Of a stretch of DNA of 64,000 nucleotides, positions 3,150 to 15,824 are shown one piece after another (within the stretch, counting starts at the first letter, position 1; each line of letters starts with the position of its first letter). Made by a program: the position numbers and the translations under genes. The stretch is from Promicromonospora iranensis (GTDB lineage: Bacteria; Actinomycetota; Actinomycetes; Actinomycetales; Cellulomonadaceae), in assembly GCF_028994805.1 (NCBI RefSeq), contig NZ_JAJQQP010000006.1:310001-374000 (forward strand). Reading direction: 5' to 3'. A model generated the notes under the pieces. It was not told the DNA's origin. It was given only the letters and a program-made list of their open reading frames with translations, and ran no database searches.

Positions 3150-4636
3150 CCGAGGCGTCCGGTGCTCGCACGTCCGGTGCCGACACGTACGGCGCCGTCG
3201 AGCCGCGCGTCCCGCTGGGCGAGGCGCGGGTGGTCCTGGCCGGCCTCGGTGTCACCGGGCGCTCCCTCCAGCGCGTCCTGACGCCGCGTGTCGCGTCCCT
3301 GGTCACCGTCGACGACAAGGCGGACGACGCCGACCACAGCGGCCTGGGCTCCGACGGCGCGGCGGCCGTGCTGGCCGAGGCGGACCTGCTGGTCGCCTCA
3401 CCGGGGTTCGCGCCGCACCACCCGGTCGTCGCCGCCGCGCTGGCCGCCGGCGTGCCCGTGTGGAGCGAGGTCGAGCTGGCGTGGCGCCTGCGGGTCGACC
3501 GGCTGGGCTCCGAAGGGCCCGCGGAGTGGCTCGGCATCACCGGGTCCAACGGCAAGACGACCACCGTCGAGATGCTGGTGGCGATCCTGCGCGCCGCGGG
3601 CCTGCGCACCGCCGCCGTCGGCAACGTGGGCCGGTCCCTCGTGGAGGCGGCCCTCGACCCCACGCTCGACGTCGTCGCCGTGGAGCTCTCGAGCTTCCAG
3701 CTCCACTTCACGCACACGATGTCCCTGGAGGCCGGTGCGGTCCTCAACGTCTCGCCCGACCACCTCGACTGGCACGGCTCCATCGACGCCTACACGCGCG
3801 ACAAGGGCCGTATCTACGAACGCGTCCGGACGGCCTGCGTCTACAACGTCGCGGACCGGACGACCGAGGACCTGGTGCGCGAGGCAGACGTCGTCGAGGG
3901 CGCGCGCGCCGTCGGCTTCGTGGCGGGCACGCCCGGTCCGGGCGACCTCGGCCTGGTCGACGACGTCCTGGTGGACCGCGCCTTCCACACCGCGAGCGAC
4001 GACCCCGACCGCCGCAAGAGCGCCGCGGAGCTCGGCACCCTGGCCGACCTGAAGCAGCTGGGCGACCAGGGCGGCGTCGTGCCGACGCACATCGTGGCCG
4101 ACGCCCTGGCCGCCGCCGCCCTGGCGCGTGCGCACGGTGTGCCGGCGTCCGCCGTCCGCGACGGTCTGCGGTCCTTCGGGCCGAGCGAGCACCGTATCCA
4201 GCGGGTCGCCGAGGCGGACGGCGTCACGTACGTGAACGACTCCAAGGCGACGAACACGCACTCCGCGGCCGCCTCGCTGGCCGGCTTCGCCCACGGCACG
4301 GTCGTGTGGATCGCCGGCGGGCTGTCCAAGGGCGCCACGTTCGACGAGCTCGTCTCGTCCCGCGCCGACCGCATGCGCGCCGCCGTGGTGATCGGCGCCG
4401 ACCCCCGCCCGCTGGCCGACACGCTGGCCCGACACGCGCCGAAGATCCCGGTGGTGGTGATCGATCCCGGTGACACTGGGACCGTGATGCGCCGGGCGGT
4501 AGCCGCAGCGCGGGACCTGGCCCAGCCGGGGGACACCGTGCTGCTGGCCCCGGCGGGTGCGTCGCAGGACCAGTTCGCCTCGTACGCCCAGCGCGGCGAG
4601 GAGTTCGCACGCGTGGTGCGTGAGCTCACCTCCTGA
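3146..4636 (+). CDS. murD: MurD, UDP-MurNAc-L-Ala:D-Glu ligase
   Basis: MurD adds D-glutamate to UDP-MurNAc-L-Ala. The 496-residue protein has a Rossmann-type opening ([13 protein letters not shown], about 29-41), the ATP loop [11 protein letters not shown] (130-140), and the C-terminal [22 protein letters not shown] segment typical of MurD. The GTG at 3146 overlaps the mraY stop. The first 20 residues are a polar extension before the conserved domain. Confidence 0.96.
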
Positions 4637-9876: not shown

Positions 9877-9897
9877 AAAATGACATCCGTGTGATTT
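9877..9897 (-). promoter_or_regulatory. 21-bp imperfect palindrome upstream of ftsZ, shared with sepF
   Basis: On the reverse strand this reads AAATCACACGGATGTC, then A, then TTTT. The same 21 bases with one substitution occur at 12302-12322 in front of sepF. The arms AAATCACA and TGTCATTT are inverted copies with one mismatch around a 4-bp centre, which is typical of a site bound by a protein dimer. It lies about 74-94 bases upstream of the predicted ftsZ transcription start. The binding factor is unknown to me. Confidence 0.7.
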
Positions 9898-9905
9898 CTC
9901 GCGTG

Positions 9906-9932
9906 CATCGTTGCGCGACACGCGCAACGATG
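9906..9932. promoter_or_regulatory. Perfect 12-bp inverted repeat upstream of ftsZ
   Basis: CATCGTTGCGCG (9906-9917), spacer ACA, and its exact complement CGCGCAACGATG (9921-9932). It sits directly before the predicted -35 box of ftsZ and 9 bases after the shared palindrome. It has no T-run, so an operator is more likely than a terminator; ftsQ has its own candidate stem closer by. Confidence 0.6.
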
Positions 9933-9935
9933 TCT

Positions 9936-9964
9936 TCGACACAGTTCGACGCCGCACTTACCGT
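9936..9964 (+). promoter_or_regulatory. Predicted ftsZ promoter
   Basis: TCGACA (9936-9941), 17-bp spacer, TACCGT (9959-9964). The predicted start is near 9971, giving a leader of about 95 bases. A GTTCGAC/GTCGAAC inverted repeat (9944-9950, 9963-9969) spans the spacer and -10 box. Confidence 0.5.
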
Positions 9965-10066
9965 CGAACTCAGCAGCAACCTGACATAACTCTAACCCTC
10001 TACCTCAACCTGAGACTTCGGGAGGGACGAGAGTCGGGACTCGGGACCCGATCGAAAGGCGACGAC

Positions 10067-11416
10067 GTGGCAACTCCGCAGAACTACCTGGCAGTAATCA
10101 AGGTGGTCGGTATCGGCGGCGGTGGTGTGAACGCCGTCAACCGCATGATCGAGGTCGGCCTCAAGGGCGTCGAGTTCATCGCGATCAACACGGACGCACA
10201 GGCACTCCTGATGTCGGACGCCGACGTCAAGCTCGACGTCGGACGTGAGCTCACGCGCGGCCTCGGTGCCGGCGCGGACCCTGAGGTCGGCAAGAAGGCG
10301 GCCGAGGACCACGCCGAGGAGATCGAGGACGTCCTGCGCGGCGCCGACATGGTCTTCGTCACGGCGGGCGAGGGCGGCGGCACCGGCACCGGCGGCGCTC
10401 CCGTCGTAGCACGCATCGCGCGCTCGCTCGGCGCGCTGACGGTCGGCGTCGTGACGCGGCCGTTCACGTTCGAGGGCCGGCGCCGTGCGGTGCAGGCCGA
10501 GAGCGGCATCGAGAACCTCCGCGACGAGGTCGACACGCTGATCGTGATCCCGAACGACCGGCTCCTGTCGATGTCGGACCGGAACGTGTCGGCCATCGCG
10601 GCGTTCCACTCGGCCGACCAGGTGCTGCACTCCGGTGTGCAGGGCATCACCGATCTCATCACCACGCCCGGCCTGATCAACCTGGACTTCGCGGACGTGA
10701 AGTCGGTCATGCAGGGTGCGGGCTCCGCGCTCATGGGCATCGGCTCGGCACGGGGCGAGGACCGCGCGGTGCAGGCGGCCGAGCTGGCGATCTCGTCGCC
10801 GCTGCTCGAGGCCTCGATCGACGGCGCGCACGGCGTGCTGCTGTCGATCCAGGGTGGCAGCGACCTCGGTCTCTTCGAGGTGCACGAGGCCGCGCGCCTG
10901 GTGCAGGAGGCCGCGCACCCGGAGGCCAACATCATCTTCGGTACGGTCATCGACGACGCGCTCGGCGACGAGGTGCGGGTCACCGTCATCGCCGCGGGCT
11001 TCGACGGCGGCCTGCCCAAGGAGCGCAAGGACAACCGGGCCCTCGGTCAGGTGGCCGGAGCGGTGGCGAGCCCCGCGGCGACGCGGAGCCCCGCGACGGC
11101 GCCGGTGCCGCTGCCCGACGTCTCCGACGCGGCGCGCCGCGCACCGGAGCACCACAGCGGGAACGGCATGCCCCCGTCGGTCCCGCCGGCGCACCAGCAG
11201 CCGTCCCCGGTCTCCACGCTGCCTCGCGTGATCGACGACGAGGGTTCGGACGACGTGCCGCGCACGCTGGACGAGCCGGCCGTCGTGGTGCAGGGCTCGT
11301 TCAACCGGCAGGACGTCTCGCGCGAGCAGGGCGAGCGCGTGGAGGTCCCGCCGCTGTACGACGAGAACCCGCGCCGGACCTCCGAGGACCTGGACGTCCC
11401 CGACTTCCTGAAGTGA
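10067..11416 (+). CDS. ftsZ: FtsZ, tubulin-like division GTPase
   Basis: FtsZ polymerises into the Z-ring that sets the division plane. The 449-residue protein has the GIGGGGVNA loop (15-23), the tubulin signature GGGTGTGG (103-110), a variable Pro/Ser/Ala-rich linker from about 325, and the tail DLDVPDFLK. Tails of this kind bind SepF in actinobacteria. GTG 10067 follows GAAAGG at 10054-10059 with good spacing; the open frame further upstream contains the promoter. With no FtsA, the nearby SepF is the expected membrane anchor. Confidence 0.98.
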
Positions 11417-11440
11417 CCGGACCCGCGATCGTCCGCCGGG

Positions 11441-11446
11441 TACTCT
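11441..11446 (+). promoter_or_regulatory. -10 box of a leaderless pgeF promoter
   Basis: TACTCT ends 7 bases before the GTG at 11454, the geometry of actinobacterial leaderless transcripts. It supports this start over the in-frame GTG at 11508. Confidence 0.5.
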
Positions 11447-11453
11447 CGCACAC

Positions 11454-12245
11454 GTGAGCGACACCCGGACTCTTGCAGGCGTGCACCCCGTCGATCTCGG
11501 CGACGGGGTGCACGCCTTTTTCACGGCCGGCACGGGCGGTGTCTCGCCCGCCCCCTGGTCGCCGTCGGACGGCGGCGGGCTGAACCTCGGCCTCAACGTG
11601 TCCGACGACGCGGCGCGGGTGGCGGTCAACCGGTCACTGGTGGCTGAGCGGCTCGGTGCGCCGGTGGCCTTCGCCACACAGGTGCACGGCGACGTGGTGC
11701 TGGAGCTCGGGCCGGCCGAGCGCGTCGCGTGGGCCGCGCACCGGCCACCCGCGTCGGCGGGGGAGGGCGACGCCCTGGTCACCGCGGAACGCGGGCTGGG
11801 GCTCGGGGTCCTCGTCGCCGACTGCGTACCCGTGCTGCTGGCCGACCCGGAGGCACGCGTCGTCGCGGTCGCGCACGCAGGGCGCAAGGGCGTGCTGACC
11901 GGTGTGGTGCACCGGGCCCTCGACGCGCTGGTCGCGCGCGGTGCCGACCCGGCACGCGTGCGCGCCGCGGTCGGTCCGGCGGTGTGCGGGCGGTGCTACG
12001 AGGTGCCCGGCGCGATGCGCGACGAGGTGGCCGCCGTGGTGCCGGAGACCCGTGCGACGACCAGCGAGGGTACACCCGGCCTGGACCTGCCCGCGGGAGT
12101 GGTCGCGCAGCTCGCCGTGCGCGGCGTGGCGGCGACGCGGGTCGAGCGGTGCACGCTCGAGGATGCGAGCCTGTTCTCGCACCGTCGGGCCAGCGGTGTC
12201 GGTACCACAACCGGCCGCCAAGCCGGAATCATCGCGCTCATTTGA
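11454..12245 (+). CDS. pgeF: PgeF (YfiH family), peptidoglycan editing factor
   Basis: YfiH-family proteins are copper/zinc-dependent laccase-like or purine nucleosidase enzymes. In E. coli PgeF keeps wrongly built muropeptide precursors (L-Ser for L-Ala) out of the wall. The 263-residue protein shows ATQVHGD (His78), VADCVPVLLAD (Cys124), HAGRKG (His141) and the closing CTLEDASLFSHRR. The usual HAGWRG is HAGRKG here. It follows ftsZ by 37 bases. Codons 9-23 encode a perfect intrinsic terminator hairpin, noted separately. The yggS gene that often follows is absent. Confidence 0.88.
   Translation: MSDTRTLAGVHPVDLGDGVHAFFTAGTGGVSPAPWSPSDGGGLNLGLNVSDDAARVAVNRSLVAERLGAPVAFATQVHGDVVLELGPAERVAWAAHRPPASAGEGDALVTAERGLGLGVLVADCVPVLLADPEARVVAVAHAGRKGVLTGVVHRALDALVARGADPARVRAAVGPAVCGRCYEVPGAMRDEVAAVVPETRATTSEGTPGLDLPAGVVAQLAVRGVAATRVERCTLEDASLFSHRRASGVGTTTGRQAGIIALI
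11478..11521 (+). terminator. Intrinsic terminator inside the 5' end of pgeF
   Basis: GGCGTGCACCCCGTCG (11478-11493), 7-base loop, exact complement (11501-11516), then TTTTT (11517-11521). This 16-bp perfect stem with a T-run is the best terminator in the window. It lies 60 bases after the ftsZ stop, but within pgeF codons 9-23. Confidence 0.8.
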
Positions 12246-12301
12246 CGTCAGCGCCCGGATAGTCCTTCCGCGACACGCCGACAGCAACGCGCTGACCTGC
12301 A

Positions 12302-12322
12302 AAATCACACGGATGTCGTTTT
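12302..12322 (+). promoter_or_regulatory. 21-bp imperfect palindrome upstream of sepF, shared with ftsZ
   Basis: AAATCACACGGATGTC, then G, then TTTT. It matches the ftsZ copy at 20 of 21 positions, in the opposite orientation. It lies about 93-113 bases upstream of the predicted sepF transcription start and is followed by another perfect palindrome, as at ftsZ. Confidence 0.7.
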
Positions 12323-12337
12323 TAGCGAGCAATCGCT

Positions 12338-12360
12338 GAACAACTTTGGCAAAGTTGTTC
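12338..12360. promoter_or_regulatory. Perfect 11-bp inverted repeat upstream of sepF
   Basis: GAACAACTTTG (12338-12348), one central base, CAAAGTTGTTC (12350-12360). There is no T-run after it. It holds the same place relative to the shared palindrome as the inverted repeat in front of ftsZ, although its sequence differs. It could alternatively end pgeF transcripts. Confidence 0.6.
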
Positions 12361-12379
12361 GTGGCACGGCGTGTCGCAC

Positions 12380-12408
12380 TTCCGGGTCGGATAGCGCCGG
12401 GCTACTTT
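12380..12408 (+). promoter_or_regulatory. Predicted sepF promoter
   Basis: TTCCGG (12380-12385), 17-bp spacer, TACTTT (12403-12408). The predicted start is near 12415, leaving a leader of about 98 bases before the sepF ATG. Confidence 0.5.
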
Positions 12409-12512: not shown

Positions 12513-12983
12513 ATGGCCGGAGCGCTTCGCAAGACCATGCTGTATCTGGGCCTCGCCGACGATCAGGGCGAGCAGGAGTACCTCGACGACTACGACGAGG
12601 GCCTGGAGGAAAACGTGGAGGATCACCGGCACGCACAGGTCACGCCGCTGCACCGCGATGGTGTGCCGCGTGAGGCCCTGTCCTCCTCGGACCTGCGCCG
12701 CATCACGACGGTGCACCCCCGGTCGTACAACGACGCACGGAATATCGGCGAGGCTTTCCGCGCCGGCACTCCCGTCATCATGAACCTCTCCGACATGGAC
12801 GACGCCGACGCCAAGCGCCTGGTCGACTTCTCCGCCGGCCTGATCTTCGGTCTGCACGGCTCGATCGAGCGAGTGACCAACAAGGTCTTCCTGCTCTCGC
12901 CCGAGCACGTGGAGATCGCTGCTGAGGAGCAGGTTGCCACCGAGAAGCCGAACGGACGCGGCGGCTTCTACAACCAGAGCTGA
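12513..12983 (+). CDS. sepF: SepF, FtsZ membrane anchor
   Basis: SepF binds the FtsZ tail and tethers the Z-ring to the membrane; in actinobacteria without FtsA it is the main anchor. The 156-residue protein has an N-terminal amphipathic stretch ([14 protein letters not shown]), an acidic linker (about 20-45), and the SepF fold with [23 protein letters not shown] and the [16 protein letters not shown] dimer segment. ATG 12513 follows GGAGA with a 7-base gap. It has its own promoter region resembling that of ftsZ, and a terminator 38 bases after the stop. Confidence 0.96.
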
Positions 12984-15187: not shown

Positions 15188-15213
15188 GATGAATCACACA
15201 CGTGTGGTTCATC
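15188..15213. promoter_or_regulatory. 26-bp palindrome at the predicted start point (operator candidate)
   Basis: Arms GATGAATCACAC (15188-15199) and GTGTGGTTCATC (15202-15213) match at 11 of 12 positions. It covers the predicted start and first transcribed bases of the downstream gene, a place where a bound repressor would block transcription. Confidence 0.5.
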
Positions 15214-15248: not shown

Positions 15249-15824
15249 ATGATCCGAGGATTCCGTGCAACCTGCCGTGCAGGGGCAGCCGTAGTCATGT
15301 CGGCCGGTCTGGTCGTCGGCGCGGCAACGGGTGCGAGCGCACTGGTGACGGGCGACGAGCCGATCAGCGCGCCGGCCGCCGGCAGCGCGACGGAGGTGGC
15401 CGACGGCGCTGCCGCTGCGGCCGACGTGCTCGGCACCGCGAGCCCGCTGGGTGTCGTGGGTACGGACGGCGCGCTGGACGTGCTCGAGGGCTACGGCACC
15501 TCGGAGCTGCCCGCGGGCGTCGACGGTGCGATGGTCCCCGAGGAGGTCGCCACCACCGGTGAGGTCGTCGAGATCGAGAGCGACGGCAGCTTCAACGCGC
15601 TGAACGACGTCTGTGTCGCTCCCTGGTACTGGGAGGGTCCGGGCAACGTGGGCAGCACCGCCAACGTGACCGACTACCAGGCCTGCAACGACGGTGACTA
15701 CGAGCTCGGTGGCGACGGTTCGGTCAACGTCCTGAACAACGTGTGCGTCGCGCCGTGGCACTGGGACGGCCCGCTGAACCTGTTCAACACGGGTAACGTC
15801 ACGAAGTACGCGGCCTGCAACTGA
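15249..15824 (+). CDS. Small secreted protein with two Cys-pair repeats
   Basis: This 191-residue protein is of unknown function. Residues 1-31 form a signal peptide with a likely cut after ASA. An acidic Ala/Gly/Val-rich region follows to about 110, then two copies of a 37-residue repeat (111-147 and 155-191). Each has the pattern DGS-N-LN-VCVAPW-W-GP-N, then NVT and a final AC-N. Each copy has two cysteines 24 residues apart (122/146, 166/190), probably a disulfide. The layout recalls small surface proteins such as chaplins, but the sequence is not a convincing chaplin. It has its own promoter, an AGGGGG ribosome site and a terminator. Confidence 0.75.
   Translation: MIRGFRATCRAGAAVVMSAGLVVGAATGASALVTGDEPISAPAAGSATEVADGAAAAADVLGTASPLGVVGTDGALDVLEGYGTSELPAGVDGAMVPEEVATTGEVVEIESDGSFNALNDVCVAPWYWEGPGNVGSTANVTDYQACNDGDYELGGDGSVNVLNNVCVAPWHWDGPLNLFNTGNVTKYAACN

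Follow-up and report, generated by a model that had tools for sequence, protein, structure and literature searches.

The window analysed here is a 64,000-nucleotide (nt) stretch of the Promicromonospora iranensis genome (family Cellulomonadaceae, class Actinomycetes; RefSeq assembly GCF_028994805.1, contig NZ_JAJQQP010000006.1, positions 310,001 to 374,000). It contains the division genes ftsZ and sepF, each preceded by a copy of the same short palindrome, and this palindrome and its possible binding protein are the subject of this report. The genes of the region are encoded in the order ftsQ, ftsZ, a pgeF-like gene, sepF, yggT, divIVA, a dksA/traR-like gene, a gene for a probable secreted protein, lspA, and rluD, where yggT, lspA, and rluD are names presumed from position. 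By SepF, the closest named records are from Promicromonospora, with 100% for P. iranensis. The assembly comprises 5.84 Mb in 31 contigs, and genome-wide site counts refer to the whole assembly.

The palindrome has the consensus RAATSACA-N4-TGTSATTY (20 bp), and the reversed version of this pattern served as the control. A preliminary description of the window had reported a 21-bp imperfect palindrome in front of ftsZ and sepF, with 20 of 21 bases identical between the copies, and the sequence is as described. The 16-mer AAATCACACGGATGTC is located at 9882-9897 on the minus strand and at 12302-12317 on the plus strand. With up to three mismatches it matched twice in the window, whereas 100 shuffles averaged 0.17 matches and never gave two; in the assembly there were 14 matches at this threshold versus one for the reversed control, and exact copies only at the two ftsZ/sepF places. 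The consensus palindrome with at most one mismatch was found at three sites in the whole genome, all of them within the window, and one further place had two mismatches. The third site precedes the gene for the probable secreted protein, whose neighbors are the dksA-like gene and lspA. The preliminary description had noticed no other copy in the intergenic regions read; this holds for the exact 16-mer, but not for the palindrome, of which the third site is a one-mismatch copy.

Conservation was scored in 80 named loci around sepF, in which the 300 bp upstream could be scored for ftsZ in 70 and for sepF in 79. With at most one mismatch, the site was found at ftsZ in eight loci: seven from Promicromonospora, Antribacter, and Myceligenerans, and one from Cellulomonas denverensis (L094). 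Allowing two mismatches added a single locus (L108). At sepF it was found in 5 of the 79 with at most one mismatch and in five more with two (three from the Promicromonospora/Antribacter/Myceligenerans clade, Cellulomonas triticagri, and Luteimicrobium), and eight named loci of the clade had the sepF site with at most two. Up to three mismatches, the reversed pattern was absent upstream of ftsZ and sepF in both sets. Loci from Isoptericola, Cellulosimicrobium, Krasilnikoviella, and Oerskovia and nearly all Cellulomonas loci were without the ftsZ and sepF sites. The preliminary description had named a lack of conservation at the ftsZ and sepF promoters of related species as a result that would speak against it; the sites are conserved within the clade but not outside of it, as the site with at most one mismatch was not found at ftsZ in 62 of the 70 sampled loci or at sepF in 74 of the 79. 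The copy in C. denverensis, GAATCACACCGGTGTGATCC, is a one-mismatch palindrome outside the Promicromonospora clade and was perhaps gained independently.

The clade copies varied chiefly in the central four bases (N4) and the outer base. Two copies within one relative often differed from each other, yet stayed near the palindrome, as in L049 and L355, and their flanks were unrelated; the identity of 20 of 21 bases in the window is therefore not a sign of recent duplication. Judged by sequence comparison, the ftsZ and sepF sites are real, have been kept in evolution, and resemble protein-binding sites. The third site was in the same place, with at most two mismatches, in 10 of 13 clade loci (it was absent from L049, L051, and L354). 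It recurred in Promicromonospora and Myceligenerans, and Antribacter keeps the ftsZ and sepF sites. The 191-residue product of the gene behind the third site, in the divIVA-lspA interval, has repeated VCVAPW-W motifs, and searches of Pfam and NCBIfam with this protein gave no match.

Each of the two sites is followed by a longer palindrome and a promoter (Table 1), which the preliminary description had read as a shared two-part control region. The long perfect palindromes exist, and each is conserved in the clade, but they are unrelated in sequence to each other and were rejected as one shared element; the element common to both promoters is the WhiA-like box CGACACGC, which is on the minus strand at sepF. 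The genome contains the 23-bp sepF palindrome only once at up to three mismatches, and all 14 clade loci have it with 0-2 mismatches. The 27-bp ftsZ palindrome had 0-2 mismatches in the Promicromonospora loci, L052, and L053, four in L351 and L352, 2-4 in Myceligenerans and the like, and 6-7 in Antribacter, in which the left half has changed and the GACAC core and right half are kept; L047 was without an ftsZ region in this comparison. The proposed promoter with 17-bp spacing fits at ftsZ (TCGACA-17-TACCGT) but is weak at sepF (TTCCGG-17-TACTTT). As a separate observation, the core of the sepF palindrome, AACTTTG-G-CAAAGTT, resembles the RamB site quoted in a passage of PMC6683498, with one extra central base.

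PMC3781837 gives GACAC as the motif of WhiA, and the presence of such a box upstream of the window ftsZ would make this a promoter of WhiA type. A CGACAC-type box was found 42-43 nt before the -10 element in 36 of the 70 ftsZ promoters, the distance being 43 in the window, and GGCGTGTCG was also found upstream of sepF in Isoptericola, Puerhibacterium, and Krasilnikoviella loci. From the end of the operator-like palindrome to the GACAC box there are 18 bp at ftsZ and 46 bp at sepF, where the box has the other orientation.

Table 1. Genes and putative regulatory elements of the ftsZ-sepF region, in window coordinates
Feature	Position	Strand	Remark
Putative operator palindrome upstream of ftsZ, AAATGACATCCGTGTGATTT	9878..9897		exact match to RAATSACANNNNTGTSATTY
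Palindrome (27 bp) at ftsZ, holds GACAC box	9906..9932		12-bp arms 9906-9917/9921-9932
WhiA-like box CGACACGCG at ftsZ	9916..9924	+	starts 43 nt before TACCGT
-35-like TCGACA, ftsZ promoter	9936..9941	+	17 bp before TACCGT
-10-like TACCGT, ftsZ promoter	9959..9964	+	also visible in relatives
Probable FtsR-like box in ftsZ leader	9994..10018		17/25 bases as in the reverse complement of the Corynebacterium glutamicum FtsR site (from a passage of PMC6683498)
ftsZ	10067..11416	+	PF00091 + PF12327
pgeF/yfiH-like gene, between ftsZ and sepF	11454..12245	+	PF02578
Putative operator palindrome upstream of sepF, AAATCACACGGATGTCGTTT	12302..12321		one mismatch to consensus
Palindrome (23 bp) at sepF, GAACAACTTTGGCAAAGTTGTTC	12338..12360		11-bp arms 12338-12348/12350-12360
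WhiA-like box at sepF (GGCGTGTCG on +)	12368..12376	-	sequence comparison
-10-like TACTTT, sepF promoter	12403..12408	+	weakly matching TTCCGG at 17 bp upstream
sepF	12513..12983	+	PF04472
Third operator-like site, GAATCACACACGTGTGGTTC	15191..15210		one mismatch to palindromic consensus
Gene for probable secreted protein (191 residues) behind third site	15249..15824	+	secretion judged by eye

The exact pattern occurred 64 times in 52 of 150 family genomes and 29 times in 28 of 118 class genomes, and the reversed control not once in either set. Thirty-eight of the family sites were upstream of a gene for a DUF3263 protein, 78-276 bp from the DUF3263 match, and five, in genera g13 and g20, were 73-74 bp upstream of a match to a sepX/glpR-like gene. 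Twelve of the other 21 were inspected and all were in the ftsZ-divIVA cluster; seven more were assigned to it from the spacing of partner sites, G027:C44 lies elsewhere, and G300 was left out of the placement. Among the class sites, 18 were upstream of DUF3263 (matched by eye), one was the window ftsZ site, and 10 were elsewhere, one of which (G363:C195) is at a contig end and is identical to the DUF3263 site at another contig end of the same genome, so that the two may be the same place. The scan for clustering at division genes that had been proposed for this palindrome recovered the ftsZ-divIVA cluster and the sepX/glpR-like gene, but the commonest place was upstream of DUF3263.

No common target was seen among G027:C44 and the class sites L366-L375, except for two (L369 1566 and L374 1518), from class members of different families, which precede a small open reading frame (ORF) with a WLADG-P-L-CDL motif. 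Once or twice each, sites were upstream of an nrdH-like gene (L019) or an exonuclease-like gene (L017, L181) or in a gap between uppS- and phoH-like genes (L020), all named by eye. The second sites of genus g7 (AAATCACACCSGTGTGGTTC) were treated as coding matches; the one inspected (L237) is inside a hemE-like coding region, by eye.

PF11662 (DUF3263) was present in 146 of the 150 family genomes and in 114 of the 118 class genomes. The 450 bp upstream of the gene were scanned in the 30 best-scoring family loci and in 50 class loci, 30 of them taken by search score and 20 chosen for spread. With up to three mismatches the site was found in 24 of the family loci, the six misses all being from Isoptericola, and in 38 of the class loci, 32 of which had at most one mismatch. 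The reversed pattern was found in 0 of 30 and 0 of 50, and shuffles matched in 2 of 600 and 1 of 1000. Together with the exact sites (38 of 64 and 18 of 29, with controls at zero), this places the palindrome upstream of DUF3263 far above chance. The 12 class loci without the site were those with a diverged DUF3263 (L271-L273, L277-L280, and L284), L256, which is cut short, L287, and the canonical-looking L268 and L270. The missing site at diverged genes is in keeping with DUF3263 as the binder. In the family, the divergent neighbor of DUF3263 is ung (named by eye), but in the class sample 36 of the 38 DUF3263 sites had no ung in the fetched locus. In other words, the site follows DUF3263 and not its neighbors, and ung was set aside as the regulated gene. 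In 52 of 62 loci TAnnnT was found within 14 nt after the palindrome, at 5-6 nt in 51, a count made without a control; the left half ATGACA could therefore serve as a -35 element, with about 17 bp to the -10. In Promicromonospora, where the DUF3263 site has decayed, three loci (L221, L228, and L229) retain GAATGACA, the half on the left that would also be the -35 element, but not the right half; this is the pattern to expect while the promoter still requires its -35. The two genomes of the Antribacter genus keep one- and two-mismatch sites at DUF3263.

The gene that we take to be sepX/glpR-like, from its best NCBIfam match, inspection by eye, and gene order, had a match in 144 genomes, of which the 30 loci with the highest scores were compared. 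Thirteen had the palindrome, with 0-3 mismatches, before a CGACAC[GA]CC box, at a gap of 5-8 bp (11 loci) or 17 bp (two loci), and the other 17 had no such palindrome before this box. From the start of the box to TA[CA]CGT there are 42 or 43 nt in those 13 loci and in all 11 further promoters with a detected pair; a scripted search of 26 sepX regions did not find a GACAC/-10 pair in 15. No palindrome was present in the sepX regions of three Promicromonospora and two Antribacter genomes.

The closest known counterpart of the DUF3263 proteins considered here is NapA (Rv0430) of Mycobacterium tuberculosis, whose own gene is part of a virulence operon. It belongs to the same family (DUF3263/PF11662) as the proposed binder, and the match in the P. 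iranensis genome itself exceeds the Pfam PF11662 cut-off. By a title cited in PMC7177045, NapA is reported to regulate a virulence operon, and in this review it is described as an AT-preferring nucleoid protein that coats DNA and as a global transcription factor (AT, adenine-thymine). PDB entry 9n2n is, by its title, M. tuberculosis NapA bound to a 20mer of AT rich DNA, which shows DNA binding for this family. The predicted model of a phage DUF3263 homolog (mean predicted local distance difference test score, pLDDT, 76.9) was all-helical and compatible with a helix-turn-helix, and 9n2n was its only structural match with E < 0.01. A literature search, in which the primary NapA report was outside the scope so that absence is weak evidence, returned no palindromic NapA operator, no class-wide autoregulation, and no link to ftsZ, sepF, or sepX.

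Two known regulators of ftsZ were compared with this system. FtsR (Rv1828), the MerR-type activator of ftsZ in C. glutamicum, also binds an inverted repeat upstream of ftsZ, centered at -73 there, as given in a passage of PMC6683498. This repeat is a 25-bp AACCCT...AGGGTA sequence, which the operator-like palindrome does not resemble; the FtsR-like box in the window ftsZ leader is separate from the palindrome and is downstream of the TACCGT promoter. Parts of PMC8748795 and PMC3781837 identify ftsZ and sepX as WhiAB targets in Streptomyces venezuelae, and the SepX paper raises the possibility of a further factor acting on sepX. In the window, the promoters of ftsZ and sepF likewise carry GACAC boxes, but GACAC is short and asymmetric, whereas the palindrome is a separate element upstream of the box.

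Taken together, the palindrome is probably an operator of the cell's own NapA-family (DUF3263) protein, and one lineage has probably recruited this operator to ftsZ and sepF. What computation established is the sites with their conservation, the link of the palindrome to DUF3263, and the geometry of the promoters. From these results we infer that the DUF3263 protein would be the binder, probably as a dimer through a helix-turn-helix. In most sampled actinobacterial genera the site covers the -35 element and spacer of the DUF3263 promoter, where a bound protein would block its own promoter; autorepression is therefore the most likely ancestral role. The site is also found just upstream of the WhiA-type promoter of the sepX/glpR-like gene, as an exact match in two genera and with mismatches in more. 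The Promicromonospora/Antribacter/Myceligenerans lineage appears to have gained it upstream of ftsZ and sepF, with a further gain before a third gene of this cluster in Promicromonospora and Myceligenerans. Whether ftsZ and sepF would be activated or repressed is predicted from position: activation, or cooperation with WhiA, would suit these sites better than simple blocking because they are upstream of the GACAC box, the -10 element, and the core promoter. The shared division regulator suggested in the preliminary description is well supported by the recurrence of the site pair in the three genera and by the same site before the sepX/glpR-like gene, but the site is not confined to ftsZ and sepF. 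That its commonest place is upstream of DUF3263 suggests a candidate for the factor left unnamed there.

Several findings weigh against this interpretation. In Promicromonospora itself (13 genomes) the site upstream of DUF3263 has decayed, and none has fewer than three mismatches. A canonical DUF3263 was not always accompanied by the site: in Isoptericola it was upstream in 0 of 9 loci with a canonical DUF3263, and anywhere with at most one mismatch in 0 of 15 genomes, and L268 and L270 (two of three f22 loci, probably mycobacterial) have a canonical-looking DUF3263 and no site. Ten of the 29 class sites were near neither DUF3263 nor ftsZ, and with at most one mismatch the reversed control matched in 10 of 150 family genomes (the site itself in 119 of 150). 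The family assignments were below threshold: NapA (NF053843) was the best NCBIfam model for an 82-residue part of the Promicromonospora DUF3263 protein at 138.9 bits against a cut-off of 160, and SepX_GlpR_2 (NF050099) was the best named family for the sepX-like protein (209 residues scored) at 63 bits against 150. The AT preference of NapA points the same way.

Some of these findings are what would be expected if another transcription factor, not linked to DUF3263, binds the palindrome and DUF3263, sepX, ftsZ, and sepF are all merely its targets: Isoptericola keeps DUF3263 without any site, Promicromonospora keeps the ftsZ and sepF sites and has lost the one at the DUF3263 promoter, and a third of the class sites (10/29) are elsewhere. 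We consider such a factor rather unlikely, as the DUF3263 promoter is the most constant place of the site across families whatever its neighbor, which is expected of a self-regulating DNA-binding protein, and no other regulator gene was seen to recur beside the inspected sites, whose neighbors were read by eye. It is also very improbable that the palindrome is an extended WhiA site, made of two inverted GACAC words and part of WhiA/WhiB control. The WhiAB targets ftsZ and sepX in S. venezuelae (parts of PMC8748795 and PMC3781837) and the sites that read GACAC-N2-GTGTC would fit that explanation, but the inner base is G or C (TSACA), the window sites have TCACA and GACAT, and promoters of ftsZ and sepX have a separate CGACAC[GA]C box 42-43 nt before the -10 element whether the palindrome is there or not.

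The agreement of 20 of 21 bases between the window copies might by itself suggest chance or a recent local duplication without function. This is hardly credible: chance is excluded by the window shuffles, the assembly scan, and the family scan, and duplication is contradicted by conservation in the clade and by copies in relatives that differ from each other within unrelated flanks and stay near the palindrome (L049, L355).

A wider proposal is possible but tentative, and we would not yet favor it: throughout the class Actinomycetes, DUF3263/NapA proteins would be more than nucleoid proteins and would act as transcription factors that recognize a specific sequence and regulate themselves. They would have a small Z-ring regulon, with sepX/glpR in some genera and ftsZ and sepF recruited in one lineage; levels of a chromosome-binding protein would be wired to the supply of division proteins, and actinophages would carry decoy or hijacked copies of site and protein. 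One phage contig (L338), which also counts for the operator reading above, has a DUF3263 gene (3941-4234, 74% identical) and a one-mismatch palindrome (2076-2095) between two divergent ORFs. The phage part has findings against it as well: a site with up to three mismatches was present in only 1 of 13 phage loci with DUF3263, and 61 viral loci (L377-L437, IMG/VR) with exact GAATSACA-N4-TGTSATTC encode no DUF3263 in the fetched stretch (0/61), so the phage link rests on one contig.

Some further features of the viral loci were noted. On L338 the DUF3263 gene adjoins an ORF resembling a serine recombinase (by eye), the divergent ORFs have no Pfam match, and the region is perhaps an immunity region. 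Of the viral stretches with an exact site, 28 of 61 were above 55% guanine plus cytosine, and a crude test placed 19 of the 25 inspected sites, some of them duplicates, between ORFs. The one paper listed for DUF3263 in a text search was on a cyanophage.

Cells have to produce FtsZ together with its membrane anchor SepF, and for actinobacteria there is little knowledge of how this is achieved. The analysis gives a concrete predicted operator and a candidate factor found in 114 of the 118 class genomes, and an example, within one bacterial lineage, of a regulator site that has disappeared from one promoter and occurs at two division genes. If the proposed role of DUF3263 is true, a family known as nucleoid proteins or as proteins of unknown function would become one of sequence-specific division regulators.

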